Assembly: GCF_000019965.1 (NCBI RefSeq)
Contig: NC_010571.1
Coordinates: forward strand, 1,240,001-1,304,000
DNA: 64,000 nt
DNA from: Opitutus terrae PB90-1
GTDB taxonomy: Bacteria > Verrucomicrobiota > Verrucomicrobiia > Opitutales > Opitutaceae
Direction: 5' to 3'
How positions within the stretch are numbered: position 1 is the stretch's first letter; each line of letters starts with the position of its first letter. The notes beneath the pieces were generated by a model. That model was not told the origin of the DNA. It was given only the letters and a program-made list of their open reading frames with translations, and did not search any database. Of this stretch, positions 27,312 through 61,879 are shown one piece after another. The translations under genes and the position numbers were made by a program.

Positions 27312-27323
27312 ACAGACGGAATG

Positions 27324-27352
27324 ATGGTAAAGTGCACGGACGATGTCGCCAA
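27324..27352 (-). promoter_or_regulatory. Candidate promoter for the intronless tRNA
   Basis: On the minus strand, TTGGCG (27352-27347) and TACCAT (27329-27324) are separated by 17 nt, ending ~12 nt before the mature 5' end of the tRNA. The -35 part overlaps the first repeat of the adjacent array, so the array may supply the promoter. Confidence 0.5.
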
Positions 27353-28788: not shown

Positions 28789-29271
28789 ATGAACCTAGAC
28801 TTATCTGAGCAAGAAGTTCGCGCGCGGCTTAATTTAGCGTTGGAACAACTAGCCACACGCGACGGATATTTGGTGAAATACGGTCTAAATGAAAGGACTG
28901 TGACTCACAAACTGGCCGAGTACCTGCAGGCAGTTTTCCCAAAGTGGGATGTCGATTGCGAATACAACCGCGACGGACCTGATACAAAAGACGTCCTAAT
29001 TCCTAATGTGGACGGCGATCTCGACGACAACCCGGTGTATCCAGATATCATCGTGCACCAGCGCGGCGACTTCCGAGCACATGACCACCCCCCGCACCTT
29101 CTTGTGATCGAAGCACGAAAATCTGGTTGGGGCGTCGGCAAAATCTCCCGTGATCAATGGAAGGTTTGGGCCTACCTTAACGAACTGCGCTACTGTTACG
29201 GCGCCCTGGTCGAGTATGCTTTCGTTGATGGAAAGGTTCAGTTTGCGATGGAATTCATTCCGCGAACCTGA
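28789..29271 (+). CDS. Small PD-(D/E)XK-like putative nuclease
   Basis: A 160-residue protein. After a helical N-terminus (RLNLALEQLATRDGYLV) comes ERTVTHKLAEYLQAVFP, then the pattern VYPDIIVHQRG ... HLLVIEARKSG, matching the Asp and Glu-x-(Lys/Arg) strands of PD-(D/E)XK nucleases, with Glu in the preceding helix. The last motif is E-A-R-K, so activity is uncertain. The ATG at 28789 is preferred over a GTG three codons earlier. The PLD-family gene follows after 44 nt, suggesting a pair. Confidence 0.55.
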   Translation: MNLDLSEQEVRARLNLALEQLATRDGYLVKYGLNERTVTHKLAEYLQAVFPKWDVDCEYNRDGPDTKDVLIPNVDGDLDDNPVYPDIIVHQRGDFRAHDHPPHLLVIEARKSGWGVGKISRDQWKVWAYLNELRYCYGALVEYAFVDGKVQFAMEFIPRT

Positions 29272-29315
29272 CGCGAGCGCATTCTTGACGGTCAAAGATT
29301 GATAGCAGACTCGTT

Positions 29316-36700: not shown

Positions 36701-37043
36701 CTTTGCGGCCGGCCAGGCGCGATTCTTCAACGACGAAACCTATTCACAGCGCGTCGAAGAACAAATTTTTGCTGCGGCTTATGCGGGAAAGGACGCCTCG
36801 GATCGCGACGACAGCCAGTTCCCGTTGTGCTTCATGCAAGCTCTCCTTCATCTGTCCGTGTTGAACGACAGCGACGAGGCCAATGCGGAAAAGTTCTTTG
36901 GGCGGCTGGATAAGCTCGTGCGAGTGCTGCCGTCCCTCACCAATTTTCTGCGGCGGGCCACCCAGTTTTGGATGACGAGTCTTCCGTTCTCACAGCAGCG
37001 CGCTTTCTGGCGGCTCCTCTTAACGGTCCGCGCGCATTATTGA
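30744..37043 (+). CDS. Giant Mrr-like nuclease / TPR / PIN-like protein, candidate defence effector
   Basis: A 2,099-residue cytoplasmic protein. Residues ~10-150 look like an Mrr/PD-(D/E)XK nuclease: YVFQQLCRDIL, then GIDVWACRRPDQQIEVGQCKRY, giving Asp and Gln-x-Lys. From ~180 to ~880 are helical TPR-like repeats (many A-x-L-A-x-x-G patterns). A possible PIN-type nuclease follows, with VYADVTSLILAADL near 895 and GVLWCDDRMVN near 1180, both acidic. The rest (~1200-2099) is helical with no recognised domain. An HNH protein follows after 16 nt. The start (GTG) follows a low-complexity region. The two genes resemble an anti-phage operon in which repeats sense and nucleases act; that is inference. 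Confidence 0.7.
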   Translation: MPSSVPALFLSKDEYVFQQLCRDILHAEPDISGCEVYGQRGQMQRGIDVWACRRPDQQIEVGQCKRYATLTARHVEQATKDFFAHWEFWKAQGVRRFVLFAACDTSSRKVQDAILRQRPIFRKKRIKFEAWGLNDLKGKLVSLRQNVQSLYGPDVADAICGTVAETPALRAQHQWMNHHLGVVLSELESGRSAELDGLREKSREGRHAEALADVEKIKTAPSWPSLPRGLQARFLRFEAALRLNLKQPAARVAPLVEQARAIDPQGDFQIIDAYVKYREGGQSAALELLSAPRSIDGWNFRWGLLLDVARGPEIEPELARLPATVAPNAETHRLVALAALLAGDFPKADAQAATARALNPTHHGVRMISAVVDYFSCVVLEPGKPVCLSWPPPVPWEFVKRDADTLARLRRAAGEFARLAAELPERDEEREQMEVFQLAAIACDSARRDEATALVAKLLSANPAHYRIAAWAVERALPFDTNAVASALLAAATAGNLTQPDAWLACCSVLLSAKRNAEAETAIDRAEPSFATTGNMDLWRFQKSQFLANRGLTAEAAALVEKVEDQGMRSSAQLALARIGARSKADFARLGAQLETEYRSTESPQLLFKCCEIRVRTTDWKFISEHATELVEKLRTDAALRLALHATFNHGDYELCLSLLRQHSGLLLGGQLPPDIRSLRAECQQRLGHWQEAIAEAEALYRERPSVERFAEYFRLLLITADVPRCALIARELLELPNAEADLLLQAARVTRLQDQNLARELWRRALKLLRNDMTLMTAALGLAYELGLEREAAQLQQRLFAQGRTCSGPFQVKTFEETVAILREQRAEQERLNKVYNESAAPIHLIAKQVGAPLVELYHGTLSRNRQSPNLIAAPALLARYGGRKMPDRFAVDTVYADVTSLILAADLEILDQIEAKLSPIQISGDVTPSLMEQIARVTPHQPSQHAQRAEMFRLIKVKQLAVAEVPSPAPEVAESITKDLGEEWTAQWQAAAAADGAVLADHPLVTHDGTFRPVELPVPIGVRVFNLREFLHALFLAGGLTADEWKSAVAKGTVLAGYPERAEAELAWPKDRMVALTGAVFVMLFDGGWLDAATTHFRLVISQTALKEAEAEEAAHGRREELAAWSKGLLERIQRGIAQKKYRVLPQLAKPAQAKQDLGADGVGLGTLLRHVSVAKTGVLWCDDRMVNRHLTAGSRPIVGIIEILLMLRSTGALSEAEYYGKVLHLRRSNVRFLPVTPEEILHHLRQATVNNDTLVETPALATLRRYLAACLVDRERLLAPLAPVEGGRQDIREWEFVLQVRRASDETLRKIWEQQSDSLEIRNAQADWLWQAVFLDVLGMRQNLVVERPIGEERELTAFAVAMNFLIGVTLSIKVPGASDATLAPRKGYYDWLTTRMLQPLERSNPGFVGLVAKLVADDVTATTRAALKKKSKDTRIGECGVMRQLVWNLPNDLLQELDLPADVMAGISLKANGPTATVDGGEFDVGTLWAAQAEAINGRPGQVQDRTGKRQLSFVRDDKPGGITLRVSDTASAEPKFWRESAYPLMLDAVAARVADLEQHPEWFDCPAAERHEAIQAIANAERPADRAERLHQWINKSPTVWYRRLTNQFRGQEGISADEIRLPSWSRLRAHLRFKDGAEIQPREGFSVAMSDLLREEGLFRTLQRAICLPVTLPPALVDAWIALPTADARSDWSKLRRGAPSPIAVIQILRLGLVRADIDAAEIKALFAELFDPVAGEEFADSFNSVLVWVGRELVHWPNGRALPAWQRHLMIWYHASRLHAMFRIGRADLAKLPGWFASHGGTWNESILTYDPHFADDLLHPSEGSRGCIEINGLVNALAGVPDDRVRLLDISTVWMRLRTESPIQVAGLQSDLARRIDLAPDNLGALLRRSDQTEAVRVLGEGVVKELFLRNDDEEITEGIRALVAAPYAQKSWTVLLATLRDLPAPTACRTALREALQAIDFVEFMRREPDWACIALAFAAGQARFFNDETYSQRVEEQIFAAAYAGKDASDRDDSQFPLCFMQALLHLSVLNDSDEANAEKFFGRLDKLVRVLPSLTNFLRRATQFWMTSLPFSQQRAFWRLLLTVRAHY

Positions 37044-46776: not shown

Positions 46777-47583
46777 CTATTGGCTGCCAATGTCGAGGAC
46801 CGTGAAATCGCGCCGGCTTAGCTGGGAGAGCAAGCCATCCTCGCCCGGAAAATGCAGGACCCCGGCTGCTATCAGGACAGACTTTTTCTCCGCCGCTATA
46901 TCCACGATTTTTTCGAGCCAACGGCTTTCGCGTTCCTGAAGTTGTGCGAGTATCCTCGTTGGCCGCAGCGGCGCCAACTCGCTGCGCAAGCGAGCGAGGG
47001 TCGGGAGGTCAGCGGCTTCGTACGCGTTGAGTATCTGGGTGCTATCCGCCCGAGGGAGGCAGCCGGTGGTCCGCCAAGCGTCCAGCTCCGCAACGATTTC
47101 GTGCAACGGCCCGCTGACCGCTGCCCGGCCTTGGTCCTCGCTCGTCTCCAGGAAGCGAATCTCCTTCTTTTGAGCGCGGTAGCGTTGGCAGACCGTTCGG
47201 TCGACGCCCCAATCCATTTCATATCCCGCTGTCATCTGAGTCGGTGTGGACAGCTCGATTAGGTCGCCGATTCCACCAGCGGCACAATTTGCCAGCGGTC
47301 GATTGAGGGAGAGTTCCTGCTCCAAGCGCCGGTAGATCGCCGGGCCAACTTCCTGCAACAAAGTGGTTGCCGAGTTCGTTGGTCGAAACATGAAGCCAAT
47401 GTCCCATTTCTCCAGCGGATCGATTTCGAAATACGCTATGTCCGCGCCGTGAATGAGCGCATCAGCCATCGGCGGAAATTGGTATCCGCCGAAGGGGCCG
47501 GTATGTATGGTCGCAAGCAAAGTGATCGGGCGCTCGACGATGCTCCAGCACAAGGCACGAGGCAACGGACGCTTGAAATTCAT
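46777..47583 (-). CDS. GumN/TraB family protein
   Basis: A 268-residue protein. The N-terminus TLLATIHTGPFGGYQFPPM with ALIHGADIAYFEID, and the C-terminus KKSVLIAAGVLHFPGEDGLLSQL, match the two GxxH-type motifs of the TraB/PrgY/GumN fold, related to Tiki metalloproteases. Members act in pheromone shutdown and as proposed proteases; the substrate here is unknown. No signal peptide is seen, unlike many GumN proteins. It precedes the 619-residue gene and forms a two-gene unit with it. Confidence 0.65.
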   Translation of the reverse strand: MNFKRPLPRALCWSIVERPITLLATIHTGPFGGYQFPPMADALIHGADIAYFEIDPLEKWDIGFMFRPTNSATTLLQEVGPAIYRRLEQELSLNRPLANCAAGGIGDLIELSTPTQMTAGYEMDWGVDRTVCQRYRAQKKEIRFLETSEDQGRAAVSGPLHEIVAELDAWRTTGCLPRADSTQILNAYEAADLPTLARLRSELAPLRPTRILAQLQERESRWLEKIVDIAAEKKSVLIAAGVLHFPGEDGLLSQLSRRDFTVLDIGSQ

Positions 47584-47854
47584 CGGGGCAGGATAGTCGG
47601 CAGAGTGGAACTTACGAGCGAACCTTTAGCGTCCACGCACCGTCCTAAAAATCGTCGTTACGCTCACTGACGCAGAGCGCAGTACCTGTCCGAGATTCGA
47701 GAGACCGTCGCCCCACTTGACCGCAATCAAAGAGAGACCCTGACCTGGCCCCTAAGTTGAGGATTTGTTCCTCGGTCCACGACGCCTAGTCTTTTTGCGC
47801 CTCGCTACCAACGGCGACCGCGTGAGTCGGTTCGAAAAAAGCGAAATCAGCCTC

Positions 47855-47932
47855 TTGACACGGTTCCCACCGTTTTTGCTGCAGGACCGCTGCAGAGGTG
47901 CTGCAACGGTGCCGCAGGACCAATGCATGAAC
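47855..47932 (+). promoter_or_regulatory. TTGACA plus five 11-bp direct repeats, array 1
   Basis: TTGACA (47855-47860), a 17-nt spacer ending CCGTTTTT, then five consecutive 11-bp units from 47878 to 47932: GCTGCAGGACC, GCTGCAGAGGT, GCTGCAACGGT, GCCGCAGGACC, AATGCATGAAC. The core is (C)TGCA. The 11-bp period places each unit on the same helix face. The same layout with another core recurs at 48773-48850. It lies upstream of a 51-residue basic peptide gene. Confidence 0.8.
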
Positions 47933-48021
47933 ATTCGTGTTTTACGGAGCTGACACTAGTCGCTCGTCAGCTGAGATATGCGTCTTGCATGGCGATGGTC
48001 GACTTTTCGATTTGCTAGGGT

Positions 48022-48177
48022 ATGGACGTGAAAAGACGCACCTCACGGAATCCTACACCCTCCCGAACCACCAGACGGTCGAAGAAGTCGCGTTTAGCCC
48101 ACGTCGCCCTCGAATGGGCCAAGGTTCTTGGTAAATGCGTGCCGCTTCTCGCCGAACTTCGTCGCTGGCTGCAGTAG
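48022..48177 (+). CDS. Small basic peptide, paralogue 1
   Basis: A 51-residue peptide, strongly basic in its first half (MDVKRRTSRNPTPSRTTRRS) and amphipathic at the end, closing with PLLAELRRWLQ. A second gene at 48945-49103 encodes a similar peptide ending PLLAELRRWLS. It stops 3 nt before the helix-turn-helix gene at 48181, implying co-transcription. GTG at 48028 is an alternative start that aligns with the other copy. DNA or RNA binding is plausible; the function is unknown. Confidence 0.6.
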   Translation: MDVKRRTSRNPTPSRTTRRSKKSRLAHVALEWAKVLGKCVPLLAELRRWLQ

Positions 48178-48180
48178 CCC

Positions 48181-48768
48181 ATGATCAATTTCGACTTCAG
48201 CAATCCAATTTTGAGTCGGTTCGGCCCAGACCGCGCGATGAGGATCACTCGTGCTCCATCGCGCAGTGCGTGGCGCCTCGCCCAGTGTAATCATGAGTGC
48301 CTGGAAAGGCGCCTGCGTCAGCTTGGCCCCTGGGTGCGCATCCACGCAATAGCCCGAGCCGTAGGCTGGAGTAAGCCGACGGTGATGAAATTCGTTCGTC
48401 TCGGCTTGCTTCAGCGTCGCCAGAAGCAGCGTGGCCAGCGTGCGAGAATGCCGGCAGAGGTCAGCACGCGGAGCGTCATGGATCTCGCGGAGGCTTGTCG
48501 CGTGATGCTTGAGGATCCGCCATGCAGTGCCCGCGCATACCATCGAATCCGAACGCGCTTTGAGGTCTTGGGGCCGAACGGTGACTACCAGACGCTGCCC
48601 GCCTTCCTCACTATCGAGGACGTCGCGCGGTATCTGCGCTGCACCCACACAACGGTGCTGCGAATGATACGTGCAGGCGAAATTTACGCCGAACACCGCA
48701 CGCCCTGCCGGTGGGAAATACGAAAAAAAGACCTGCCTCGGTGGGCTTATAAAGAAACACGAATTTAG
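48181..48768 (+). CDS. Helix-turn-helix protein with C-terminal excisionase/MerR-like domain
   Basis: A 195-residue protein. The middle has IHAIARAVGWSKPTVMKFV (a first HTH) and the C-terminal ~50 residues LTIEDVARYLRCTHTTVLRM, IRAGEIYAEHR and WEIRKKDLPRW follow the excisionase/MerR-like winged-helix pattern (third motif is the wing). It sits between two 11-bp direct-repeat arrays and two paralogous basic-peptide genes and is the natural candidate to bind those arrays, perhaps cooperatively as BldC-like proteins do. That binding is inference. Confidence 0.7.
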   Translation: MINFDFSNPILSRFGPDRAMRITRAPSRSAWRLAQCNHECLERRLRQLGPWVRIHAIARAVGWSKPTVMKFVRLGLLQRRQKQRGQRARMPAEVSTRSVMDLAEACRVMLEDPPCSARAYHRIRTRFEVLGPNGDYQTLPAFLTIEDVARYLRCTHTTVLRMIRAGEIYAEHRTPCRWEIRKKDLPRWAYKETRI

Positions 48769-48772
48769 CCAC

Positions 48773-48850
48773 TTGACATGATTTTCCCCGTTTTTCTTAA
48801 CAGCGTCTTAAGGATCTCTTAAGGATGTCTTAAAGTGCCTTTAAGGAATA
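48773..48850 (+). promoter_or_regulatory. TTGACA plus five 11-bp direct repeats, array 2
   Basis: TTGACA (48773-48778), a 17-nt spacer ending CCGTTTTT, then units from 48796 to 48850: CTTAACAGCGT, CTTAAGGATCT, CTTAAGGATGT, CTTAAAGTGCC, TTTAAGGAATA. The core is CTTAA. A TATAAT box at 48874-48879 stands 23 nt after the array; the matching -35 position is poor (TTCCCG at 48851) and abuts the last repeat, as expected for an activator-dependent promoter. Confidence 0.8.
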
Positions 48851-48944
48851 TTCCCGTTTCCCGCGCATCGCGCTATAATTTGCGGTGCAGGCGGTTGCGG
48901 ATATGAGAAGATGGTGCTCCGCGCCGGTTTGATAGAGTTGTGGG

Positions 48945-49103
48945 GTGAAAAAACACCGCCGCCGAAAGCGCAAATCCAATCGCCTTAAGTCACGACGTCG
49001 GGCGGCTCCAAAACGAAGCATTGCCCGCCATATCCTCGGGTGGGTGACGCTCGCACGGAAAGCGCTCCCGCTCCTCGCCGAGCTGCGCCGATGGCTTTCG
49101 TGA
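48945..49103 (+). CDS. Small basic peptide, paralogue 2
   Basis: A 52-residue peptide with a GTG start: VKKHRRRKRKSNRLKSRRR at the N-terminus, extremely basic, and an amphipathic C-terminus ending PLLAELRRWLS. It shares PLLAELRRWL and an Arg/Lys-rich start with the 51-residue peptide at 48022, and is preceded by the matching repeat array 2. It is too short for standard gene callers. The function is unknown. Confidence 0.55.
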   Translation: MKKHRRRKRKSNRLKSRRRAAPKRSIARHILGWVTLARKALPLLAELRRWLS

Positions 49104-49432
49104 GCACGACGCGAGGCGCTCTCCCGCCTCGATCCAAGACTTCGGCTACAACAATCGTTTCACCTGCGTGGCACAACGGGATTTGGCGTAGTCAGACTGA
49201 ACCGGCCTTACCGCAGACCAAGATGCGCCAGAAATCGGGACAGCGTGTTCCAGGGATTTCGAACCGTCGCTCACGCTACATAGGCGGCCAAAACTCCATT
49301 GAAGAGCGAGGCAACTTTTCTCGGACGAGGCACGACGTAAAGACGGGCCTCGGACAGTTTGGCGTAAAGATTGGCCAAACCGCCAAATCCCTGTGTCCAA
49401 CTCCACAGGGAGAACAAGCGAGCGCGGAGTGG
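49104..49432. other. Spacer before the intron-containing tRNA, with terminator hairpin
   Basis: No gene is seen. Several TTTGGCG/CGCCAAA-type short inverted repeats occur between 49,170 and 49,390. CCCTGTG and CACAGGG form a 7-bp hairpin at 49389-49410, just downstream of the tRNA 3' end on the minus strand, and may terminate the tRNA transcript. Confidence 0.45.
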
Positions 49433-49725
49433 TGGGCCCACTGGGATTCGAACCCAGAACCAAAGGATTATGCTTACCACTTCGGCTTTCGCCGCCGGCA
49501 ACCCGTGCGTGGTCTGGACCATGCCTTCACCGTGTCGCGCCTGTGCGTGAGGTAGGTGGGTGATTATGGCCTCTACACCTTCCCGCTACGGCGGGCTTGG
49601 CTCGGCGTTGGGTCGCCCCAAGAGCGGGCAGGCCGTTCACCGAATTTACACCTGACTAGCGGCGCGTTTCCACGCCGCCGACCCAAATGGCGAGTCCTCT
49701 GCTCTAACCGTTGAGCTATAGGCCC
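49430..49725 (-). tRNA. tRNA with CAU anticodon, probably tRNA-Ile2, split by a group I intron
   Basis: Exons 49693-49725 (33 nt) and 49433-49472 (40 nt) join to a 73-nt tRNA identical to the copy at 27239-27311 except one base in the D arm (C to T on the tRNA strand). The CCA end is encoded at 49432-49430, unlike the other copy. The insertion is between U33 and C34 of the anticodon loop: the 5' exon ends in U and the intron ends in G, as group I chemistry requires. It lies next to tniQ. Confidence 0.93.
49473..49692 (-). ncRNA. Group I intron (Azoarcus-like, subgroup IC3 type)
   Basis: A 220-nt self-splicing intron without an ORF. On the minus strand it contains GGTGTAAATTCGG, CAACGCCGAGCCAAGC, GGAAGGTGTAGAG, CACCCACCTACC and GGTGAAGGCATGGTCCAG in that order. 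These correspond closely to the core (IGS/P3, P6-P7, P3'-P8, J8/7 region) of the Azoarcus tRNA-Ile intron as I remember it. A P2-like hairpin GCGGCG/CGCCGC follows the 5' end. The last base is G (omega-G). Boundaries rest on comparison with the intronless tRNA copy. Confidence 0.9.
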
Positions 49726-49782
49726 AAATCCAAAGAACGCCCCTAGCCTGCAACCCCTCGCGCGTTGCTCAACACGATTCGA

Positions 49783-51132
49783 TCAAATGAGGAGCATCAA
49801 TTGCTCCGACGGATCTTCGTAGCCGAGTTCCTCCCTGACTCTACGAAGCGCGGCAATCGCCCATGCGCATCGCAACTTGCTCGGCCGGTCGAGGTAAGGC
49901 GAAAGGGTCTTGTAATTAGGAACAATCCCTCGGGCGTGCAGGAACCGTGCAACCGTTTCCAAGGCTGCGCAAAACTGGTCGCGCTTGATGTCCGCCATAA
50001 GCTTTCGGTTTTCGAGGTAACGCCGGGCCACGAGGCGAGCCTCTTCTGGGAAATTTTGACGGATCACCACGTCGCGTCGGCGCAGCTTGCGACTGCAGAT
50101 TTCTGAGAACGACATCATCGAGTATCTGTTCTCCCGCAGAATCGTGCTGAGTTCGGAACCGAGCCTAGCTTTATCGATTCGCCGCCGGGTGGAGACCGCC
50201 GCATGGCGCATCCCTGCGTCGATCGATTGACGTAATCTGCCGTCATGGCCGGATGGACGCCGAAGCAGCAAAAAATCGACGAGGCTGATCCCAAAAACCC
50301 AGCATAGATTCAGCGTCATTCGGAGGCGTGGAATGGCTTTGTTCGAACGCCATCTGAACAATGCGAGGGGCGACGCACCCAAGGCCTTGGCCGCGTCCCG
50401 GTTTGAGCGGAGCTCGAACAAGTCCAACCAGTGCTCCAGCGCACGGTGATAACTAAAGTCTTCCGACAACGACTCTACAGTTTGAAACCTGATAAAATTG
50501 CCCAGCTCTCTCGCTACCCATACCTCATAATCGATCGAGCGTATAGAACCAACAATCGGATCAGCAGGAACTGCACCGATGTTCGTTTCGAACAATGAAC
50601 TGCCGCACCGGTAGCAGCGACCAATGTGACTGCCGCCAGAAAGGAGAACCAGCGACTGGCGACAAGTCGGGCAAAGTGAGCCCAACGGTTTTCTGGTTTC
50701 TGGACATACACGCACCGGCTCCAGCGCCCAGAGGAGCGGATAGTATTTTGTTTCTTGGGAGCGCAAGGATTGCACACTCCAAGCGAGCTGTTGGCGAAGA
50801 AGCCCGTTAAACGTCGTGAACGGAGCGAACGCCAAGGTGGTCGAACGGCGTAGCCCATCCAGGCGGGTCAGTTGCTCAGTTCGGTTGACCAGCATTCGGG
50901 CGACCTCGCTGCATCCATTGATCGACTGCCCGACCGACCTTCCCAAAGCGCGGGTAGAGAACTTCAGCATTTGCAGTCCAGTGCCCGTGGCGAATTTCCA
51001 TTCGAGGAGTTGAGCAGGACTGACGTCGTTCTCTCGCGCCGTCCTAACCAGGAGGCTCGCGAGTGACTCGCGTTGGGCTCCGTCTGGATCGCAGGGGGTG
51101 ACCCGCAGGATCTCGGTGCAGCTCGATTTCAT
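49783..51132 (-). CDS. tniQ: TniQ/TnsD-family target selector
   Basis: A 449-residue protein. The N-terminus has the TniQ pattern (ESLASLLVRTARENDVSPAQ), a treble-clef zinc site (VRVCPETRKPLGSLCPTCRQ and CYRCGSS near 140-190), then HTH segments: SNRDAAKALGASPLALFRW and a second near 345-375. TnsD-like proteins choose the insertion site; TniQ in Tn7-like elements recruits TnsC. Its ATG overlaps the tnsC stop (ATGA), so translation is probably coupled. The stop is ~57 nt from the intron-bearing tRNA gene. The long C-terminal DNA-binding region suggests it recognises a fixed chromosomal site. Confidence 0.8.
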   Translation of the reverse strand: MKSSCTEILRVTPCDPDGAQRESLASLLVRTARENDVSPAQLLEWKFATGTGLQMLKFSTRALGRSVGQSINGCSEVARMLVNRTEQLTRLDGLRRSTTLAFAPFTTFNGLLRQQLAWSVQSLRSQETKYYPLLWALEPVRVCPETRKPLGSLCPTCRQSLVLLSGGSHIGRCYRCGSSLFETNIGAVPADPIVGSIRSIDYEVWVARELGNFIRFQTVESLSEDFSYHRALEHWLDLFELRSNRDAAKALGASPLALFRWRSNKAIPRLRMTLNLCWVFGISLVDFLLLRRPSGHDGRLRQSIDAGMRHAAVSTRRRIDKARLGSELSTILRENRYSMMSFSEICSRKLRRRDVVIRQNFPEEARLVARRYLENRKLMADIKRDQFCAALETVARFLHARGIVPNYKTLSPYLDRPSKLRCAWAIAALRRVREELGYEDPSEQLMLLI

Positions 51133-52295
51133 GCGGCTCTTCTGGCGGTTGGATCGAGGTGCTTAGTGCCGACCGGATCGTGGTGCGGGTTTCGCTCCCC
51201 GGGCTTCCGTTTCCGTTTGCTGCTTGCGTGGTGCTGTTCGTCAGAGGGGGATGAACTATCCGCCGGCAAGAATCCTAAACGCGTCAAGTAGTCCGTTTCA
51301 CAAAGCGACCTGTTGGTGAAGTACTTTTCGCCGTCTAGGGTCTCCGTGATTAGCTCTAAGCGGTCGCTCGCAGCGAGAATCGTCTGTTCCAAGACGCTTT
51401 TGGTGATCTTCCGACCGCCTGGACTTTTGGTTCTGCACCACGCGCGGAACAACCAGTCACGCAAGACGCCAATACATCCGACCGAGCCCTGATACAGATA
51501 TGGAACCTCTTCGAGCAGGGAAACCGAGCATATCTCATCGAGATCTGCGGCAAAAACAGCGACAACTTTTGCGAACGGTTCTAGGCTTTGAGCGGGATCC
51601 TTGGCATCGTAGACGTAACGCGAGAAATGCACGACCTCGCGACGCCTGATAAGCGCGCTGCTAAGATCCATCAACTTAATCAATTCGTATGTCCCGAAGA
51701 GGACAAATAGCGTGTTGGTTTCGTCGGCGATATATTTGATGTGTTCCAGTTGGTTGACGAGCGTCTGTGAAGAGGCGACGCGCAACAGGTGATGGGCTTC
51801 GTCAAAGATCAGCGCCTTCGGTTGTCGGTGGGTAATCGTGCGTTGCAGGATGCGAAAGAGTCGATCGTTTGGCGATCGCTGTGCAGCCTCGGGCGACATG
51901 GTCTTTAGCGCTGTAGTACGAGGCGCTTGTGAATTGGTGCCTTGAGCCATGGCCCGATGCTCAGCGAAAGGGTGCTGTAAAGAGATTAGCAGCTGAATGT
52001 AAGTATCCTTCCATGAAAAAGCGGTCGGCCCGGGTGCCTTTACCGATGTAGATCCGAAGGCGACCATCTCCGGATTACTTTCAATCTCCTGGGCGGCGAT
52101 TGCCTCAAGTTCTTGGGCGAACTGCTTGCGCAAGGTGGTCTTACCGGCGCCGGTTGGACCTGTGACAATAACAATTCGCGTGCTGGTCTTCATCCGCACC
52201 AGCTCGCGCAAGCGATCAAGTGCGTCATCGAAACATAAATGAGCGATCGTCGTTGTGAAACACGCTGGCGGATTGGAGAAGAGTTCTTTGGACAT
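51129..52295 (-). CDS. tnsC: TnsC/TniB-like AAA+ transposition regulator
   Basis: A 388-residue AAA+ ATPase. Walker A is GPTGAGKTTLRKQF (residues 46-59); Walker B is PKALIFDEAHHLL near 157; a sensor-like TLFVLFGTYELI follows, then RRREVVHFSRY with an arginine finger candidate. TnsC-type proteins form filaments on DNA that link the target selector (TniQ) to the transposase. It starts 18 nt after tnsAB and overlaps tniQ by 4 nt, giving a tnsAB-tnsC-tniQ operon. Confidence 0.85.
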   Translation of the reverse strand: MSKELFSNPPACFTTTIAHLCFDDALDRLRELVRMKTSTRIVIVTGPTGAGKTTLRKQFAQELEAIAAQEIESNPEMVAFGSTSVKAPGPTAFSWKDTYIQLLISLQHPFAEHRAMAQGTNSQAPRTTALKTMSPEAAQRSPNDRLFRILQRTITHRQPKALIFDEAHHLLRVASSQTLVNQLEHIKYIADETNTLFVLFGTYELIKLMDLSSALIRRREVVHFSRYVYDAKDPAQSLEPFAKVVAVFAADLDEICSVSLLEEVPYLYQGSVGCIGVLRDWLFRAWCRTKSPGGRKITKSVLEQTILAASDRLELITETLDGEKYFTNRSLCETDYLTRLGFLPADSSSPSDEQHHASSKRKRKPGERNPHHDPVGTKHLDPTARRAA

Positions 52296-52313
52296 GGTGC
52301 TGTAGTGTTAAGG

Positions 52314-55052
52314 TTAGGCTGCCGTCTTGCGCAGATGGGAAAAATCGATTTTCGGCAGCTTGGAACCGATCGACTGAACGCCTCCCGAATGCTCCGTCTG
52401 CGGCGACACGTGTGCGTGTTGAGGCTTGGAAAGCTGTCGTTGCGCTCTCGCTCGGCGCTGCTCCCGGAGCGCTTTCTCGTCTTCGAGCATCTCGTCGCCA
52501 AGACAAGCAAGCTTGCGACCGTGAGTGCGCTCACGCCGCTCAGCATGATTGTTCTTGAGGCGCCGCCGTGCAATGACCTGAAGGTGCCGAGTCCGCTCCG
52601 TCACGTTACGCAGTTCCGGTGCATGCCGGGCGGTACATTCAACCCATGTGTCACCGATGGCCGCAAAAACGATCGCGAGTTCGTAAGGATCGTAGCGGAC
52701 ACGAACCTTCGTTTTTTCCACGTGCGGCTTTGCCATAACATCGTTCCAGTAGTAGTACCCTTCCACGAAGATACCCCGGCCGGGTTGAACGACGCGTGTC
52801 ACGCCGTCGACTTCGGGAAAGAAGGCGATCTTGGCTTGGTCCGGAGGAACTGTGAAACGGCCTTCCCGATCTGGAGCGCGCTTTTGATCCCGCTCGAAGG
52901 CCAGCCGTGGAGTCGTGCCCAGCGCCGCCGAAGGGGCATCCCAGAGCATCGTGAACAGATAGTGTTCAATCCGCCGCCACAAAGCTGATAGAGTCCAGAT
53001 GGCGAGTTTTTCAGGATTCATCTCAGCCGTCATCTCACGGGCTGTCTGGAGGGGTTTCGTATTCCCCGCCGAGTTATGGATCACTTCTCGATCGATAACC
53101 CGGAAAAGCGCCTCGATCTCACTTGCAAAGCGCGGATCGCGCGGTGGGCGATTGATTTTGGTTATTCCTAGTGTTGCGAGCAGCGAGTCGAACGTTGCAT
53201 TGTTGAACGCTTTGCCGTTATCCACGACAATATACTTAACAGGTTCACCGAAACGTTCAATTTCGTCGCGGAGGCACATGGTGCCAGACCGGTAACTTTC
53301 CGGCTCAAACAAGAACGCAGCCCCGATGGGAGCGCTCCCGTAGTGAGGCAGTGTCAACAATGTTAGTGTCGGCTTCCCCAAAACTTCGCCCGTTTCATCG
53401 TCGACGACGAGTATATCGAAACTCTTGCCATCCATTTGGGACACCTTCAGCGGAAAATCTCCGGCAGTGATCCAATTTTTCCCGCCTGCCGAAGAGGCGT
53501 CATACTTATAGGCAGCGCCCTTCCCCTGTCTACTTTCCGTCGCATCTCGCAGATTCTTCATCCTATCGAGGTGGCGGCGATACGCGCCCTTCGAGGGGAA
53601 TGGCAGCCCGCGCGCTTCTCGTCTCTGGCGGAGCGCCCGCCATACAAAGGTTTTGGAAGGGGCGGTCTTCGAGAAGTATAGCTCCTCCGCGACAGCGGTC
53701 ATTTCGTCTCGCATCTCTTTCGGCAATGCATCCCGCGGCCGACCGGGCCGCGGTCGGTCGAACAAGCCCCAAAGCGGCGTACCGAAGCGAACCATCGATT
53801 CGTGCGCCGCACGCTTCCAGCGCTGCACCGTACGCGTTTTTATGGGCTTCAGTCCAAAGTCTTCTGGCTTCGCTTCAGGATGACGTTCGAGAAACCTAAG
53901 AAACTCATTTCTCGCCTTTCCAAGTAGCTGCTTCTCTAGCGTCAAGGCGGTGAAGTACGGTTTGAGCGTCTCCGCTTGGTCCGCGCCATCTACGACTACT
54001 TCGTCGAGGAGCTCGATTTCTCCTGTGCCAATCAATGAACACAGTAGGTCCCTTGGAAATGCCGTCGGAGAACCTTCCGCAGCCATCAGGTAGACCTTAT
54101 TCCGCGAGGCGTTGCAGATGGAGTAGTTTGTCCCGTTCCATCGGAGGCGAGTCCCTGCTTTGAGGACGAGAGATCTTTCCGACTGCTCGACAGTCGCAAA
54201 CTTCATCAGGCGATAGGCTTCAGCCTGGTATTCTTCGGCGAAAACCAAAGTCGTGCGGTCGTCGACGAGCAGACAATGTGCAAGCAGCACATGGACGTCG
54301 CGCCGGAGTATCCCCACATAGATGTCGTTCTTCGTGAATGCAGAGCCGGCCTGCGCAACTAGTTCCGCCAAAGGCACGCCGTCGCGCCTATTTTGAAGGA
54401 AGGTCATGATCGCCTCGAGCGCTGAGGCGGATGAGTAGGATGCTTGCCGGACTTCCTCGAGGAGGGTGTAATTGCGCAGCAGTACCGGATTCAGATCAGC
54501 GCTGCTCACGACTCGGAAATGGATGCCGTAGTCCGCAAGAGCGGCTTCCACCTCGGGCGACGTCCAGCGTCCGGTATCATCTCGGCTATACCGCCCAGGC
54601 TGTGTTAGGCTGATGGCGTGTAGAGCAGACTCCGGTTTGCATTCGACGAGTTCTAGCCTGTCCGGATAAAGGACGAGAAAATCGAGAGTGATCCAAAGGG
54701 CCCTTTCGATTCCATCCCGACATTTGCAGACCACACGCAGCTTTATGGGCTGTGCCCAGTAGCCGACACAGGCAACAGAAGACTCGAGCATCTGGGCATA
54801 TGCGGCCTCGATTGTGAGGCTTTCGACCTGAACGGTGTGCCCCATCTTCTGTGAGGCGATGTCGACGATCAGATTTCGACCGGCGACATTCGAGGGATTC
54901 CTACTCGGTAGTCCGGTAATCACGTCTGCCGCGTATTTCTTTCCTTTTTCGGTAAGAGAGCCGGCCGCTTGAAGCCGCTCGATTAACGCAATCCAATTGG
55001 GTTGATTGGTATTCACACGCATACCCATGGTATGCGCAAAAGCACATGTCAA
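52314..55052 (-). CDS. tnsAB: TnsA-TnsB fusion transposase
   Basis: A 912-residue transposase. Residues ~60-200 resemble the TnsA nuclease: Glu82 (TIEAAYAQ), Asp124 (WITLDFLV) and Glu-x-Lys139 (LVECKP), the E-D-K triad that cuts the 5' ends. Next come helix-turn-helix segments and an rve/DDE integrase core: Asp541 (VSQMDGKS), Asp611 (VVDNGKAF) and Glu647 (ASEIEALF), with 35 residues between the last two. Fusion of TnsA to TnsB implies cut-and-paste movement. ATGs at 55028 and 55022 are alternative starts. The gene is divergent from a repressor and sits over its operators. Confidence 0.85.
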   Translation of the reverse strand: MTCAFAHTMGMRVNTNQPNWIALIERLQAAGSLTEKGKKYAADVITGLPSRNPSNVAGRNLIVDIASQKMGHTVQVESLTIEAAYAQMLESSVACVGYWAQPIKLRVVCKCRDGIERALWITLDFLVLYPDRLELVECKPESALHAISLTQPGRYSRDDTGRWTSPEVEAALADYGIHFRVVSSADLNPVLLRNYTLLEEVRQASYSSASALEAIMTFLQNRRDGVPLAELVAQAGSAFTKNDIYVGILRRDVHVLLAHCLLVDDRTTLVFAEEYQAEAYRLMKFATVEQSERSLVLKAGTRLRWNGTNYSICNASRNKVYLMAAEGSPTAFPRDLLCSLIGTGEIELLDEVVVDGADQAETLKPYFTALTLEKQLLGKARNEFLRFLERHPEAKPEDFGLKPIKTRTVQRWKRAAHESMVRFGTPLWGLFDRPRPGRPRDALPKEMRDEMTAVAEELYFSKTAPSKTFVWRALRQRREARGLPFPSKGAYRRHLDRMKNLRDATESRQGKGAAYKYDASSAGGKNWITAGDFPLKVSQMDGKSFDILVVDDETGEVLGKPTLTLLTLPHYGSAPIGAAFLFEPESYRSGTMCLRDEIERFGEPVKYIVVDNGKAFNNATFDSLLATLGITKINRPPRDPRFASEIEALFRVIDREVIHNSAGNTKPLQTAREMTAEMNPEKLAIWTLSALWRRIEHYLFTMLWDAPSAALGTTPRLAFERDQKRAPDREGRFTVPPDQAKIAFFPEVDGVTRVVQPGRGIFVEGYYYWNDVMAKPHVEKTKVRVRYDPYELAIVFAAIGDTWVECTARHAPELRNVTERTRHLQVIARRRLKNNHAERRERTHGRKLACLGDEMLEDEKALREQRRARAQRQLSKPQHAHVSPQTEHSGGVQSIGSKLPKIDFSHLRKTAA

Positions 55053-57071: not shown

Positions 57072-58091
57072 TCAGGCCTGCTGTTTCCCCATCAGTTCAC
57101 GCAGCAGATCGGGCGAGATATTCAGCTGCCCGATCTTGTCGGCCTTGTCGGCGATGCCTTGGAAGGCGACGGCGATCAGCTGTTCGGGGTTCATTCCGGC
57201 GTTTGCGAGGGCCGCAAGGACGCGCGGATCTGCCGTGCCAAGCGCCTTCATCGTCGCTTCGATGCCGTAGGCGCGAGCGTCAGCTTCGCCCCTAGCGTTG
57301 GTGGCAGTGAGTTCGACCAAGTCTTTCTTCTTCTGCTCAAGCGCAATGCTCGCCGCCATCTCGGCCTCGCGAAGCAGCCGTTGCTTTTCCTGAACCGCCC
57401 GTTCCGCATCCATCTTTGTTTCCCGGATCTGGCGCTTCTTCAGCTCCACCGCGTTCTCGGTGTTCAACTCGTTCTCCTTGATCGCACGCTCGTTCTCCAC
57501 GGCGGCATTGCGGCGGCGGAAGATGGCTTCGTCAGCTTCCTTGAGCAGTTGCTCGCGTGTTTCCGCCTCAAGAGCACGCGCTGTCTCCGGCGTCGGCTTA
57601 ATGGCGAGGATCGAAAACCCGAGGATCTCCAGGCCGAGTGCTGCAACTTCCGGCGCCGCGACCAGCTTCGGCCGAAGCGCTTCGACCAGCCCATCCGACT
57701 CGCGCACGGCCTGCCGCAGCGGCAAGCGCTGGATCTGTGCGCGAGCGTGGACGTTCACGATGTTGATGAGGCGCTGGGGCAGCTTCTCTGGATCGTCGCT
57801 GGCGTAGCTCTGGCCATTCGGCGCGAGCGTGAAGTTCATCAGCGCCGCGAGCTTCTTGGGATCCGCCACACGGTAAGTTATCTGACCCTGAATCGTCACC
57901 TTCTGAAAATCCGCGGTCGTCTCCTCAAAGATGAAAGGCACCTCATTACTCGCCGTCGGAACCGCGACGAGCGAGGTGGTCGGGCCGTAGTAGAAGAAGG
58001 CGAGACCAGTGCCTTCGCGCACGAGATGGCCTTTCCGGTATTGGAGCAGGTAAGTGGTCGGTTGGACCTTGATGAAGCGGAAGCCGAACAT
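57072..58091 (-). CDS. SPFH/band-7 domain protein
   Basis: A 339-residue protein. An N-terminal SPFH-like domain (FIKVQPTTYLLQYRKG, then VQGQITYRV-type strand, ~1-180) is followed by a long charged coiled coil (~200-300; AETREQLLKEADEA, ELKKRQIRETKMDAERA) and a Gly/Ala-rich end. No membrane anchor is evident, unlike flotillins. The ATG at 58091 (MFGFRFIKV) is used because upstream codons lack family character. Such proteins oligomerise into rings or scaffolds. It is translationally adjacent to the NAD-kinase-like gene. Confidence 0.75.
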   Translation of the reverse strand: MFGFRFIKVQPTTYLLQYRKGHLVREGTGLAFFYYGPTTSLVAVPTASNEVPFIFEETTADFQKVTIQGQITYRVADPKKLAALMNFTLAPNGQSYASDDPEKLPQRLINIVNVHARAQIQRLPLRQAVRESDGLVEALRPKLVAAPEVAALGLEILGFSILAIKPTPETARALEAETREQLLKEADEAIFRRRNAAVENERAIKENELNTENAVELKKRQIRETKMDAERAVQEKQRLLREAEMAASIALEQKKKDLVELTATNARGEADARAYGIEATMKALGTADPRVLAALANAGMNPEQLIAVAFQGIADKADKIGQLNISPDLLRELMGKQQA

Positions 58092-58141
58092 GGGGAGTTG
58101 AGTTGAGGGTTGGAGGTGAAATTCGGTCGCGCGATCCGAGG

Positions 58142-58762
58142 TTAGCGATTCGTCGCGAGATCTACGCTTTGGACGAGCCGGACTCCTGCGCGCTGCATTT
58201 CTTCGAGTGCTCGATCGCAGTCGCCCGGGTTCAGCTCCACGCCACGGCATCCATCGAGTACGAGCGTCGTGGTGAAGCCCAGTTGTTGCGCATCGATGGC
58301 CGTTGCTTTCACGCAGTAGTCCGTAGCGAGCCCAAGCACGAAAACGTGAGTCACCCCTTTGAGTGTCAGGTAATCGCCCAGACCAGTCGCTTTGCGCCGA
58401 CGATTGTCGAAGAAGCCGCTGTAGCTATCGATCTCAGGACCGGTGCCCTTCGGGAAAACGCGTTGGATGCGTGCGGTGTTCAGACCCGGCGCGAAGGCAG
58501 CGCCGCCTGTGTTCTGCACACAGTGATTCGGCCACATCACCTGAGGGAGTCCGCCTAACTCAGCCATCGTGCCGGGCTGCTGTCCGCGATTGGCGGCGAA
58601 GCTGCCGTGATTTTCCGGATGCCAGTCCTGCGTGGCGACGATAACTGGGAAGCGATCGAGCAGCCGGTTCGCGACTGCAACCACTTCATCGCCGTGCGGC
58701 ACGGGCAACGCACCGCCGGGGAGGAAGTCATTCTGGATATCGACCAGGATCAGGGCATTCAT
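58142..58762 (-). CDS. pncA: Nicotinamidase
   Basis: It hydrolyses nicotinamide to nicotinate and ammonia, the first step of NAD salvage. The 206-residue isochorismatase-fold protein has the catalytic Asp in LVDIQNDFLPGG, Lys in VFPKGTG and Cys in GLATDYCVKAT, plus the metal site QDWHPENHGSF. It starts 12 nt after the nrtR stop and precedes the SPFH gene by ~50 nt. Nicotinate made here is the substrate of PncB encoded upstream. Confidence 0.92.
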   Translation of the reverse strand: MNALILVDIQNDFLPGGALPVPHGDEVVAVANRLLDRFPVIVATQDWHPENHGSFAANRGQQPGTMAELGGLPQVMWPNHCVQNTGGAAFAPGLNTARIQRVFPKGTGPEIDSYSGFFDNRRRKATGLGDYLTLKGVTHVFVLGLATDYCVKATAIDAQQLGFTTTLVLDGCRGVELNPGDCDRALEEMQRAGVRLVQSVDLATNR

Positions 58763-58774
58763 CGCGTCGAAGGT

Positions 58775-59464
58775 TCAAAGTTCGAAATTGAATCCCGCCT
58801 TTTTCAGGCGCCGGTAGCTCGGCTCGTCGAAACGATAGAGGCGCGCCGCACGATGGGCGACGTCCTGCTGGATCTCCTCGGTATCCGCCAGCAGTCCCAT
58901 GCTAAGAATCTTCTTCCTGAAATTCCGCTTATCCAGCGGCTGTTCCAGGATCGTCTCATAGAGACGCTGCAGCTCCGAAAGAGGGAACTTCTCGGGCAGG
59001 AGTTCGAAGCCGATCGGCTCGTAGCGGATCTTCCCCTTCAAACGACGGAGTGCCACGTCGAGGATCTCCTCATGATCGAAGGCCAGCGCCGGCAAGTTCG
59101 CGACCGGAAACCAAGCCACATTCCGTGCATCGCTGGCGGCGCGCACCGTGTGATCCGCCAGCTTCACGAGTGCGTAGTAGGCGACGCTGATCACTCGTTC
59201 GCGAGGGTCGCGCTTCGGTTCGCCGAACGTGTAGAGCTGCTCCAGATAAAGCTCAGTGACGCCTGTTTCCTCTTCCAGCTCCCGTCGGGCTGCAGCCTCA
59301 AGGCTTTCATTCATGTCCACGAATCCACCGGGCAGCGCCCACTTGCCCCGATAGGGCGGCTGATCTCGTTGAATCAGCAAAACCTTCAAGTCGGCCTCGT
59401 CGTAGCCGAAAACAACGCCGTCAACCGTCACGGCTGGATGCGGATATTCGTAGGTGTAGGGCAT
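58775..59464 (-). CDS. nrtR: NrtR-type Nudix transcriptional regulator of NAD metabolism
   Basis: A 229-residue repressor. The N-terminal Nudix domain contains [20 protein letters not shown] and [10 protein letters not shown] (Nudix box G-x5-E-x7-REUxEE). The C-terminal part, [17 protein letters not shown] and [14 protein letters not shown], is the winged helix typical of NrtR. The protein senses ADP-ribose in studied cases and represses NAD genes. A 21-bp operator (59489-59509) lies 25 bp upstream of the ATG, and an equal one precedes pncB. A GTG at 59506 would overlap the operator and is less likely. Confidence 0.88.
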
Positions 59465-59488
59465 GGTGGTGGTTGAACTGTCGTCATC

Positions 59489-59509
59489 TTGGTGTTGCTG
59501 TGACACTAA
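59489..59509. promoter_or_regulatory. nrtR: NrtR operator upstream of nrtR
   Basis: A 21-bp site, TTGGTGTTG followed by CTGTGACACTAA. It matches the pncB-upstream site in length, ends and core (TTrGTGTTG ... rACACTAA), and points to autoregulation. A second palindrome, GTGTAAATTACAC, lies at 59524-59536 beside it. Confidence 0.72.
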
Positions 59510-59543
59510 GTAAAGCTCAAAGTGTGTAAATTACACCAAGGCG

Positions 59544-59891
59544 CTATTTCCCAAACCGGTGGGTCACCTCGATCAGTCCGATGATGTGCCGGTTGAACTC
59601 GTCCAAGGCCTCCGCGGGAATCCACAGCTCTTCGTGCACTTTCGAACCAACGACGCGAGGTGGATACTGCTTCAGAAAGTCACTCTCCACCTGAAAACGG
59701 GTGACGAACCCCGAGCCTGAGGCAGGAACGTTCCAGTCCCGGGCGATTTGAATCGCGTAGTCCTCATTGGTGACGGGGTAGAAAATCGGCTGGTCAGGCA
59801 GCCGAGGCGGAAAGGAGCGAAAGCCGCTGGCCTCGATGAGCGCCAGCTCCTTGGGCCCGACGGGCCGATACAGAGTTGTCGTCTTAGTCAT
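59544..59891 (-). CDS. Small unknown protein coupled to nadE
   Basis: A 115-residue protein (MTKTTTLYRPVGPKELALIE) with GFRSFPPRLPDQPIFYPV, YAIQIARDWN and HEELWIPAEALDEFN. No family is certain; the Tyr-Arg start and the final strand pattern (LWIPAEAL) suggest an ADP-ribosyltransferase-like or NAD-related binding protein, but this is weak. Its ATG overlaps the nadE stop (ATGA), so it is translationally coupled to NAD synthetase and likely to act in the same pathway. Confidence 0.7.
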   Translation of the reverse strand: MTKTTTLYRPVGPKELALIEASGFRSFPPRLPDQPIFYPVTNEDYAIQIARDWNVPASGSGFVTRFQVESDFLKQYPPRVVGSKVHEELWIPAEALDEFNRHIIGLIEVTHRFGK

Positions 59892-61864
59892 GTGTTCAGT
59901 TCCGACAGCTCTCGTGCGAACCCCCCTGAGAGGATTGGATAACGGCACCACGTTTTGGGATCGAGGCTCTCGTCATCCAAGTGAAACGAAGGCGCATACC
60001 TCTCTCGCTTCCACTGGTTGCGACTCCAAAGCCGGAAGAACCGCGTCACCCAAACTTTCATCTGGTCGACCTTATACTGAGGAAACTGAACCCCGATGCT
60101 CGCGAGGACTTCTGCCGGACCTTTCTTGTCGCGGATGAACGCGCGTTCACAGGCGTCCAGCACCGTGTAAGGCATCAAATCACCCTCGTCCGTTTGCTTC
60201 TGTTCGGCAGGACGAAGCTCGGCCGTCGGCGCCTGGGCATTCACGAGCCTCAATGCCGGCAGGGCGCCGATACCGTCAGGTCCATGTTGCTCCATCCAGA
60301 CGAGCCATTGGCGCAGGTAGGCTTTGTCGATGCCGGCGATCGGGCTCAGGCCGCCGCACGTGTCTCCGTCCATCGTTGCGTAGCCTACCGCGGCCTCCGA
60401 GCGGTTGCTGGTGGAGAGAAGCAGCGCATTCCGGAGGTTGGCGAGAAACCAAACGCCGGGAGCTCGCACCCGCGCCTGGATGTTTTGAAGCGCGATGTCA
60501 TCGGTTGCCCAAGTGAGCGGACGACCGATCGCCCCGGACACGATGGAGGTGTAGCGCTCCACCAGTTCGCCGACTTCGAACTCCAAAAACTCGGCGCCGA
60601 CAGCTTGGGCGACGGCCCGTGCGGCATCGCGAGTAGTGGCCGAGCTATTCTCCGTGCCCTGATAAACGCACGTGAGGAGTGCCCTGATGACGCTGCCGAC
60701 ATCCCGATGTTCGCGCAGGGCGTGCGCGTAGCCGAGTTTCTTCAGAAAGCCATTCAGTCCGAGTTCCGCGATCCCCATTCGCACCGACAACCCTGCGAGG
60801 CACGTGACCGCCGCTGAGTCCACTCCGCCGCTCAATGAAACAACGAAGCCATGCAACCGGCTTTTTCGCATGTAGTCGAAAAGTGCCAATGCTTCGGCGC
60901 GGGCAAACTCCTCCGCCTTCAACTCAGCACTATTCTCCCAAGGGGCCATGACGATCTTGGCGGGTTCAAACGCAGTAGCCGGCACGGCGAACTTGAGTCG
61001 AACGCAGCCGGCATCGGACGATGTGAGGCCAGGTTGGTGACTCGTGGTCCGAGCCTGGCTCAGGCGCGTCTGCTGAATATCAACAACGGCGGACGTGACC
61101 GTGACGCCCTGGAATGAAAAACGTGGACCAGCGGCGACGAGCTTGCCGCCAGATGCAATCAGCGCACCGCCGTCGTAGATCGCGCGGCCCGCCTCGTTGC
61201 CCACATGATTCGAATACACATACGTCGCTCCGAAAGCTCTCGATCCTTCGAGCACGAAACGCTTGCGGACGTCGAGCTTCCCGAACGCAAAGTGACTCGC
61301 ACTTGGGTTGAAGATCACGTCCACGCCCTTCGATGCCAACGACGCGCCGGGTCTGTTGGCCACCCAAGCGTCTTCGCAGATCTCGAAGCCGATCCGAAGG
61401 CCATCGAGATCGAAAAACACATCGCCGAACGGGTAACTCCGGCCGTCCACGCGCAGTTCATGCTGAACACCGCTTGGCCAAGGTTTGAACCATCGCGGTT
61501 CGTAGTGGATGCCGTCTCCGGCCAGAAACTTCTTCGCCACAAAACCCGCGATGACGCCGTCCACCAGCAGACAGGCACAATTGAACACGGAGTTCTGGTG
61601 CATGACAGGGAGACCAACCGCCACCGCCATGCCCGTCGTCTCACCCGCGATAATGTTGAGTTCCGTCCAAGCGGTTTGGTGAACGAACGGCGCGTGAAAC
61701 GCATCCTCGCAACCATAGCCCGAGATGCACAGTTCTGGTAAGCAGAGGACGCCAACTCCTGTCTCTCGTGCCTGTCTGATGGCAGTGATAATGTTCGCTC
61801 GATTGCTGTCCCAATCCAAGGGCGTCTGGTTGAGGATTCCGGCTGCAACTTTGATAGGCTTCAT
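59888..61864 (-). CDS. nadE: Glutamine-dependent NAD+ synthetase
   Basis: It makes NAD+ from nicotinate adenine dinucleotide, ATP and glutamine. The 658-residue protein has an N-terminal nitrilase-like glutaminase with the Glu-Lys-Cys triad: LCLPELCISGYG, VAKKFLAGDG and FEICEDAW. The synthetase part holds the ATP pyrophosphatase loop SLSGGVDSAAV (near 347) and TSNRSEAAVGYATMDGD. It lies 15 nt after pncB in one operon. Having the glutaminase domain means it does not depend on free ammonia. Confidence 0.95.
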   Translation of the reverse strand: MKPIKVAAGILNQTPLDWDSNRANIITAIRQARETGVGVLCLPELCISGYGCEDAFHAPFVHQTAWTELNIIAGETTGMAVAVGLPVMHQNSVFNCACLLVDGVIAGFVAKKFLAGDGIHYEPRWFKPWPSGVQHELRVDGRSYPFGDVFFDLDGLRIGFEICEDAWVANRPGASLASKGVDVIFNPSASHFAFGKLDVRKRFVLEGSRAFGATYVYSNHVGNEAGRAIYDGGALIASGGKLVAAGPRFSFQGVTVTSAVVDIQQTRLSQARTTSHQPGLTSSDAGCVRLKFAVPATAFEPAKIVMAPWENSAELKAEEFARAEALALFDYMRKSRLHGFVVSLSGGVDSAAVTCLAGLSVRMGIAELGLNGFLKKLGYAHALREHRDVGSVIRALLTCVYQGTENSSATTRDAARAVAQAVGAEFLEFEVGELVERYTSIVSGAIGRPLTWATDDIALQNIQARVRAPGVWFLANLRNALLLSTSNRSEAAVGYATMDGDTCGGLSPIAGIDKAYLRQWLVWMEQHGPDGIGALPALRLVNAQAPTAELRPAEQKQTDEGDLMPYTVLDACERAFIRDKKGPAEVLASIGVQFPQYKVDQMKVWVTRFFRLWSRNQWKRERYAPSFHLDDESLDPKTWCRYPILSGGFARELSELNT

Positions 61865-61879
61865 GACGCTTTCTGCCGC

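Follow-up and report, generated by a model that had tools for sequence, protein, structure and literature searches.

Two consecutive regulatory units on the + strand of a closed genome of 5,957,605 bp each carry five direct repeats of 11 bp, followed at a fixed spacing by a short open reading frame for a basic micropeptide. They lie within the window (the whole 64-kb stretch of DNA that was analyzed), with a gene for a helix-turn-helix (HTH) protein between them. The period-11 arrays are real and far above background. A comparison of their sequences supports the two units as a duplicated control unit. A Tn7-like transposon of 50,983 bp encloses the whole module, that is, both units and the HTH gene. 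Tentatively, and with a little less than even confidence, we propose a module that is private to the element and autoregulated: the HTH_17 protein would assemble cooperatively on both arrays, with the micropeptides as the regulated output. We infer the binder, the direction of control, the position of the promoter and the function of the peptides.

The block upstream of the first array (47837-47877, + strand) contains TTGACA at 47855-47860 and CCGTTTTT at 47870-47877. It is followed by array 1 (47878-47932, + strand), which has the core CTGCAG. Its boxes are, in order, GCTGCAGGACC, GCTGCAGAGGT, GCTGCAACGGT, GCCGCAGGACC and AATGCATGAAC; the fifth is weak and keeps TGCA alone. The upstream block of unit 2 (48755-48795, + strand; 31 of 41 bases identical to unit 1) starts within the 3′ end of the HTH gene and contains TTGACA at 48773-48778, again with CCGTTTTT. 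Array 2 (48795-48849, + strand) has the core CTTAAG and, counted from the last T of CCGTTTTT, consists of TCTTAACAGCG, TCTTAAGGATC, TCTTAAGGATG, TCTTAAAGTGC and CTTTAAGGAAT. As the first-pass annotation had stated, TTGACA and 17 nt ending in CCGTTTTT precede the first box in both units. The equality does not extend to the cores, which lie 18 nt past TTGACA in the first unit and 17 nt past it in the second. The same annotation called the cores different. They are different in their letters, but in the register of the downstream blocks (offset 917) both read CTnnAG, both are palindromic, and it is the central two bases that differ.

Arrays were scored by the agreement of five 6-bp boxes at a fixed period, with a maximum of 30. 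Array 2 scores 28 and array 1 scores 27, the two highest values in the 64-kb window for periods 8-15; no other period exceeds 25. Across 432 kb (the window and 19 further stretches, including pieces of three other genomes), scores of at least 26 at period 11 occur at the two arrays only, and places scoring 26-27 exist at periods 9 and 12. Elsewhere in this genome, the period-11 maximum is 24 over approximately 302 kb. Periods 9, 12 and 15 reach 26-27 there, and periods 7 and 14 reach 30. These scores of 30 coincide with 24 tandem copies of the heptamer ATGAGAG (L030 18531, genome about 2318531). Dinucleotide shuffles of 47600-49760 did not reach 26 at periods 9-12 in any of 2000 trials. Direct reading, background scans and shuffles thus confirm the twin arrays of five 11-bp repeats that had been described. 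A CTGCA triple at the array spacing, with up to one mismatch, was found nowhere else in the 5.96-Mb genome. Neither an exact YTTAA triple nor an exact YTTAAK-N5-YTTAAK pair, a search that would miss degenerate boxes, was found outside array 2 in the whole genome. Because neither core array recurs in the genome, a private or local regulator is suggested.

The two units are alike in blocks. Besides the TTGACA block, identity is 10/15 directly after the array (47933-47947 in unit 1, + strand, ATTCnnGTTTnnCG; offset 917) and 21/30 in a block around an extended −10-like motif, compared with 18/60 for the linker and 20/55 for the arrays themselves. The putative motif is TTTGCTAGGGT at 48011-48021 in unit 1 and TTTGATAGAGT at 48928-48938 in unit 2 (both + strand). 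From the first core to this motif there are 137 bp in both units, and from the motif to the GTG (48945 in unit 2) there are six bases in both. The length of the linker is kept while its sequence is unconserved, which suggests that the spacing matters; equal length could also reflect a chance absence of insertions and deletions. The block identities and the shared 137 bp uphold the duplication proposed earlier, and the separated specificity proposed with it is weakened by the shared CTnnAG.

A TGn-TANNNT motif six bases 5′ of GTG would fit a leaderless transcript. A TATAAT lies 24 bp past array 2 (48874-48879, + strand), and the corresponding position of unit 1 reads TAGTCG. A consensus scan of 47580-49430 reported no sigma-70-like promoter at its threshold, TATAAT at 48874 included. 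Among the transposon genes, a Pfam scan identified a sigma-70-family factor with regions 2, 3 and 4. This factor of the element could read the promoters of the module, which would change the promoter assignment. We rejected TTGACA as an ordinary −35 element paired with a −10 inside the array, since the array contains no such −10. CCGTTTTT was also rejected as an intrinsic terminator: unit 2 has no counterpart of the hairpin at 47860-47873 in unit 1, and two terminator-like sites are what shuffled sequence gives on average (2.0). A conserved RNA leader was discarded as well. The predicted folds of the two units differ, and a search of 47600-49780 against Rfam gave one chance-level match only (E 3.6).

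The main rival explanation assigns the arrays to the host. They would be half-sites of a host response regulator of the OmpR/PhoB family, by which the element senses a host signal, and the HTH gene would be a passenger. We regard this as unlikely, but as a serious contender. The arrays do have the form of such half-sites, namely 11-bp direct repeats with a conserved core of 5-8 bp, CTTAA(G) or CTGCA(G). The PmrA box, YTTAAK-N5-YTTAAK, fits array 2. PHO boxes, as described in the cited passages, consist of 11-nt units in direct repeat, on which PhoB, SphR or PhoP bind head-to-tail, and their cyanobacterial form, CTTAACCT with a 3-bp linker, is close to array 2 (PMC1906773, PMC4415409). Rows of CTTAA 11-bp boxes abutting TATAAT also occur in viral contigs. 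Five IMG/VR contigs picked by eye from 112 stretches (L087, L089, L095, L114 and L154) carry 17 such rows on the + strand, with 2-7 boxes each, and an ORF starts 30-44 bp downstream in 7 of the 17. They are probably a Pho-box-like promoter class. A PHROGs scan of 29 ORFs at the five viral loci gave no transcription regulator among the best 25 of 38 families. Against a host regulator stands the lack of a visible regulon, as no other exact YTTAAK-N5-YTTAAK pair, YTTAA triple or CTGCA triple exists in the genome (degenerate boxes would be missed). The response regulators that bind PHO boxes serve several operons per genome according to the passages cited above, whereas either exact core array occurs once in this genome. 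Among 45 ORF products of the transposon scanned against Pfam there is no response regulator; a host regulator with degenerate sites would still agree with both negative results. The two cores also stay unexplained if a host protein is the reader.

The reading that we favor places the HTH protein on the arrays. Its gene (48181-48768, + strand) starts three bases past the stop codon of peptide 1 and encodes 195 amino acids, with an HTH_17/excisionase domain at residues 142-188. The excisionase/MerR-like domain noticed at first pass is well founded, as both HTH_17 (PF12728; E 5.5e-10, 39.8 bits against a cut-off of 27) and TIGR01764 (E 2.2e-8, 34.3 bits against 28.8) match above their cut-offs. 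The closest PHROG families include excisionases (phrog_66, E 5.1e-8; phrog_2907, E 2.8e-7). The protein thus has the domain of the HTH_17/excisionase family, and repeats approximately one helical turn apart lie beside its gene. A match to HTH_23 in the N-terminal part (residues 53-73) is under the Pfam curated cut-off, and residues 48-75 resemble the C-terminal domain of the same protein (P 0.013 by shuffling). This similarity is suggestive only of a second HTH near residues 48-75. The AlphaFold model of the protein has a mean pLDDT of 41.7 and is unusable. The two matches from a sequence search of the PDB (E 0.4 and 1.7) are not HTH relatives.

In the mechanism we propose, the HTH_17 protein would bind cooperatively along both arrays, its monomers lined up head-to-tail with one per helical turn. 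It would thereby control expression of peptide 2 and of peptide 1 with the HTH gene, which form its own operon. Head-to-tail assembly is reasonable to suppose by analogy, because described proteins bind direct repeats approximately one helical turn apart. One protein could read both arrays, since the cores share CTnnAG and differ at two bases; a single reader would require these two central bases to matter little. The micropeptides, each with a basic tail and an amphipathic helix containing PLLAELRRWL, would be the regulated output and would bind a partner that may be a protein or a nucleic acid.

Peptide 1 (48028-48177, + strand) has 49 amino acids from GTG 48028, a basic N-terminus and the end PLLAELRRWLQ. 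An alternative start at ATG 48022 would give 51 amino acids, but GTG 48028 is more likely. Peptide 2 (48945-49103, + strand) also starts with GTG; it has 52 amino acids and ends in PLLAELRRWLS. The length of 51-52 residues first given to both is correct for peptide 2 and probably too long for peptide 1. The description of the pair as paralogous basic peptides ending in PLLAELRRWL was sound. They are 41% identical over their full length, with diverged N-terminal halves and an invariant PLLAELRRWL. Within the ten codons of this motif there are six base differences, all synonymous (P 2.1e-4 under random substitution). Because these codons change synonymously only, the peptides are probably translated. 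The net charge is +12 for peptide 1 (from GTG) and +19 for peptide 2. The C-terminal helix is amphipathic, with best 18-residue hydrophobic moments of 0.53 and 0.62, and AlphaFold, given the two peptide sequences, predicts a helix at 21-51 in peptide 2 (ten-residue pLDDT means of 73-87). Searches of Pfam and PHROG gave no match to the peptides, and NCBIfam gave one insignificant match (peptide 1, E 0.13, far under the cut-off).

These features admit two further explanations. The micropeptides might themselves bind the arrays, their basic arms contacting DNA and their C-terminal helices oligomerizing, so that each peptide reads its own array. The diverged N-terminal halves beside an invariant PLLAELRRWL, the high net charges and the long predicted helix would suit such a role. 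We consider it improbable: the peptides match no DNA-binding family in Pfam, PHROG or NCBIfam, nucleic acid binding by disordered basic tails is unspecific, and an HTH gene is already present for the job. Equally doubtful is that the peptides are a pair of small toxins, cationic amphipathic helices repressed by the HTH protein, and the module an addiction system of the transposon. Their charge and amphipathicity agree with this, and tight repression would suit arrays of five boxes. No toxin family is matched in the same three collections, and the invariant, synonymously changing PLLAELRRWL argues for a specific contact and against a general disruption of membranes.

The transposon that encloses the module has ends with TGGTAAAGTG at window position 27325 and at genome position 1318307, and is flanked by a 5-bp target duplication, AATGA. 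Its transposition genes (49783-55052, − strand) encode TniQ, a TniB/TnsC-like ATPase and a Mu/TnsB-like transposase, whose N-terminal extension looks TnsA-like by eye. A distance of 12 bp separates one transposon end from the 5′ end of an intact host tRNA gene (27239-27312). A split tRNA-Ile(CAU)-like gene (49433-49726, − strand) carries an insert of approximately 220 nt at the anticodon loop, and its exon parts match this host tRNA at 40/40 and at 97% of 35 positions. From its position, we take the insert to be group-I-intron-like; Rfam did not call it as an intron. The insert may hide the element's own tRNA copy from its target finder, which is an idea only. A relative in assembly G272 has a likewise interrupted tRNA gene beside TniQ (L018 7356-7643).

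In the transposon, 25 tRNA genes stand in a row; the G272 contig has 22. Further cargo consists of RtcB, two RlaP RNA-repair proteins and two SPFH proteins, together with an NAD synthase, a nicotinate phosphoribosyltransferase, an isochorismatase-family protein and an NrtR-like regulator identified in Pfam scans. This cargo, together with the sigma-70-family factor, is located at L025 1042-4557 and 5463-12887, L017 9931-13395 and window 57075-63349. Defense-looking cargo at window positions 28780-30341 and 30744-37043 includes a PD-Lambda-3_A-like protein (E 2.1e-23) with a PLD-domain neighbor that has weak DrmC matches. The adjoining protein of 2099 amino acids has an HTH of the type found upstream of double-PIN, and a permuted GreAB-C domain.

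Given this location and the excisionases among the closest HTH families, the arrays might serve the element's DNA transactions (excision, transposition or replication, as iterons do); the HTH protein would then assist as an accessory factor, and the position of the arrays before the small ORFs would be incidental. We give this little credence. The arrays are approximately 20 kb and 30 kb from the element ends, and were rejected as binding sites of the transposon ends, since they have no match to the end motif CGACATCTTGTGGTGACAAA. Each array also lies at a fixed spacing to a small ORF. Nor does the HTH protein have the setting of an excisionase proper, as the arrays are not located at an attachment site and Pfam scans of the 45 ORF products of the transposon contain no tyrosine integrase. 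Very improbable, finally, is a two-channel switch in which the HTH protein has tandem excisionase-type domains, the two arrays are told apart by the central dinucleotide and the micropeptides feed back on the filament of their own array.

The first-pass annotation proposed a genome search for the array-peptide architecture, and this search did not yield a convincing relative of the module, the peptides or the HTH protein in the collections searched. The comparison therefore rests on the sequences of the two internal copies. The HTH protein finds only itself in its own genome and among 57 relatives (itself included). Among 387 genomes of the phylum, again including its own, seven have a match; the six others share the HTH_17 domain only, and by eye are five PTS EIIA-like proteins and one DNA methyltransferase. 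No match to it was found in IMG/VR (0/6 candidate stretches), in genome_contigs (0/31), or in plasmids and phages. The peptides find each other and three hits at E 0.50-0.74 in their own genome. In 273 genomes of the order, four have a match, namely the genome itself and three weak ones (E 0.001-0.009). These three were judged to be chance; their loci have no period-11 array above 23. The peptides had no match in IMG/VR (0/27 candidate stretches), and peptide 2, the only one searched there, had none in plasmids and phages. The first-look candidates scored per genome were capped at 24 for the peptides (order), 8 for the HTH protein (phylum) and 4 for TniQ (phylum), and weak relatives can be missed under these caps.

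The motif TTGACA-N9-CCGTTTTT occurs in 14 of 273 genomes, with 13 hits outside the own genome compared with 6 in a backward control. By eye, none of the 13 is then followed by an 11-bp array. Among 56 viral stretches, 55 of which were long enough for scoring, the best period-11 score is 21, compared with 27 here. TniQ was found in 4/273 genomes of the order (E 1e-10), in 3/387 of the phylum (E 1e-20) and in one of 137 candidate stretches of genome_contigs, which is the G272 contig. In this relative, an Opitutia MAG of the same family, TniQ is 56% identical, and the transposition genes and the interrupted tRNA are common to both elements. The contig stops approximately 0.4 kb beyond the interrupted tRNA, before the spot that would match the module. 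TTGACA-N9-CCGTTTTT is absent from the whole G272 assembly, which also has no match in the peptide search. Nor is it among the matches of the HTH protein, whose phylum search drew on as many genomes as the TniQ search in which G272 is listed.

If the HTH protein reads both arrays, the pair would be a natural experiment with equal spacing and frame and two central bases changed. It could then show how HTH_17 proteins assembling on DNA separate specificity from cooperativity. The micropeptides, with their coding signature, would form an orphan family under a regulator of its own. A Tn7-like element with approximately 25 tRNA genes and RNA-repair genes also raises the question of what such elements must control.

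Sets of five 11-bp direct repeats are known from parC/ParR of plasmid R1. This type II partition system differs from the module, as no actin-like ParM or ribbon-helix-helix match was found in eight proteins (the three of the module and five neighbors). The MerR-type domain of CarH/CarA is described as binding three or four tandem 11-bp direct repeats that overlap promoter elements (PMC9304148). According to the passages cited, CarH is a photoreceptor that depends on B12, forms tetramers in two species and has the motif TnnACA; Pfam gave no match to its B12-binding C-terminal domain in the 195-aa HTH protein. The period alone does not identify the binder, because PhoB-type regulators and CarH also use 11-bp direct repeats. 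BldC of Streptomyces, a MerR-like winged HTH protein of 68 residues, is described as assembling head-to-tail on direct repeats approximately one turn apart (PMC5859096). It differs from the HTH protein here in being, according to that source, a developmental regulator that reads AT-rich repeats, AATTXXXX(C). For RdfS, which like BldC is of the HTH_17 type, head-to-tail assembly is described as well (PMC11963761).

The closest described behavior is that of Apl from coliphage 186. In the passages cited, Apl acts as an excisionase and also regulates transcription; attP has five of its repeats, and the region from pR to pL has seven. Its 6-bp operators are spaced at 10-11 bp, and binding is weak at a single site, strongly cooperative and spreading (PMC7498355). 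Direct-repeat arrays are thus read cooperatively by a recombination directionality protein that regulates transcription. The reading of phased direct repeats by a row of DNA-binding monomers is a known principle, and the earlier statement that no system like this had been described was too strong in this respect. It stands for the whole arrangement, within the literature and collections searched, which contain no convincing relative. As far as the passages on Apl go, that protein uses one consensus for its arrays and acts with an integrase, and no paralogous micropeptides are reported. The module here has two cores and two such peptides, and lies in a Tn7-like element.
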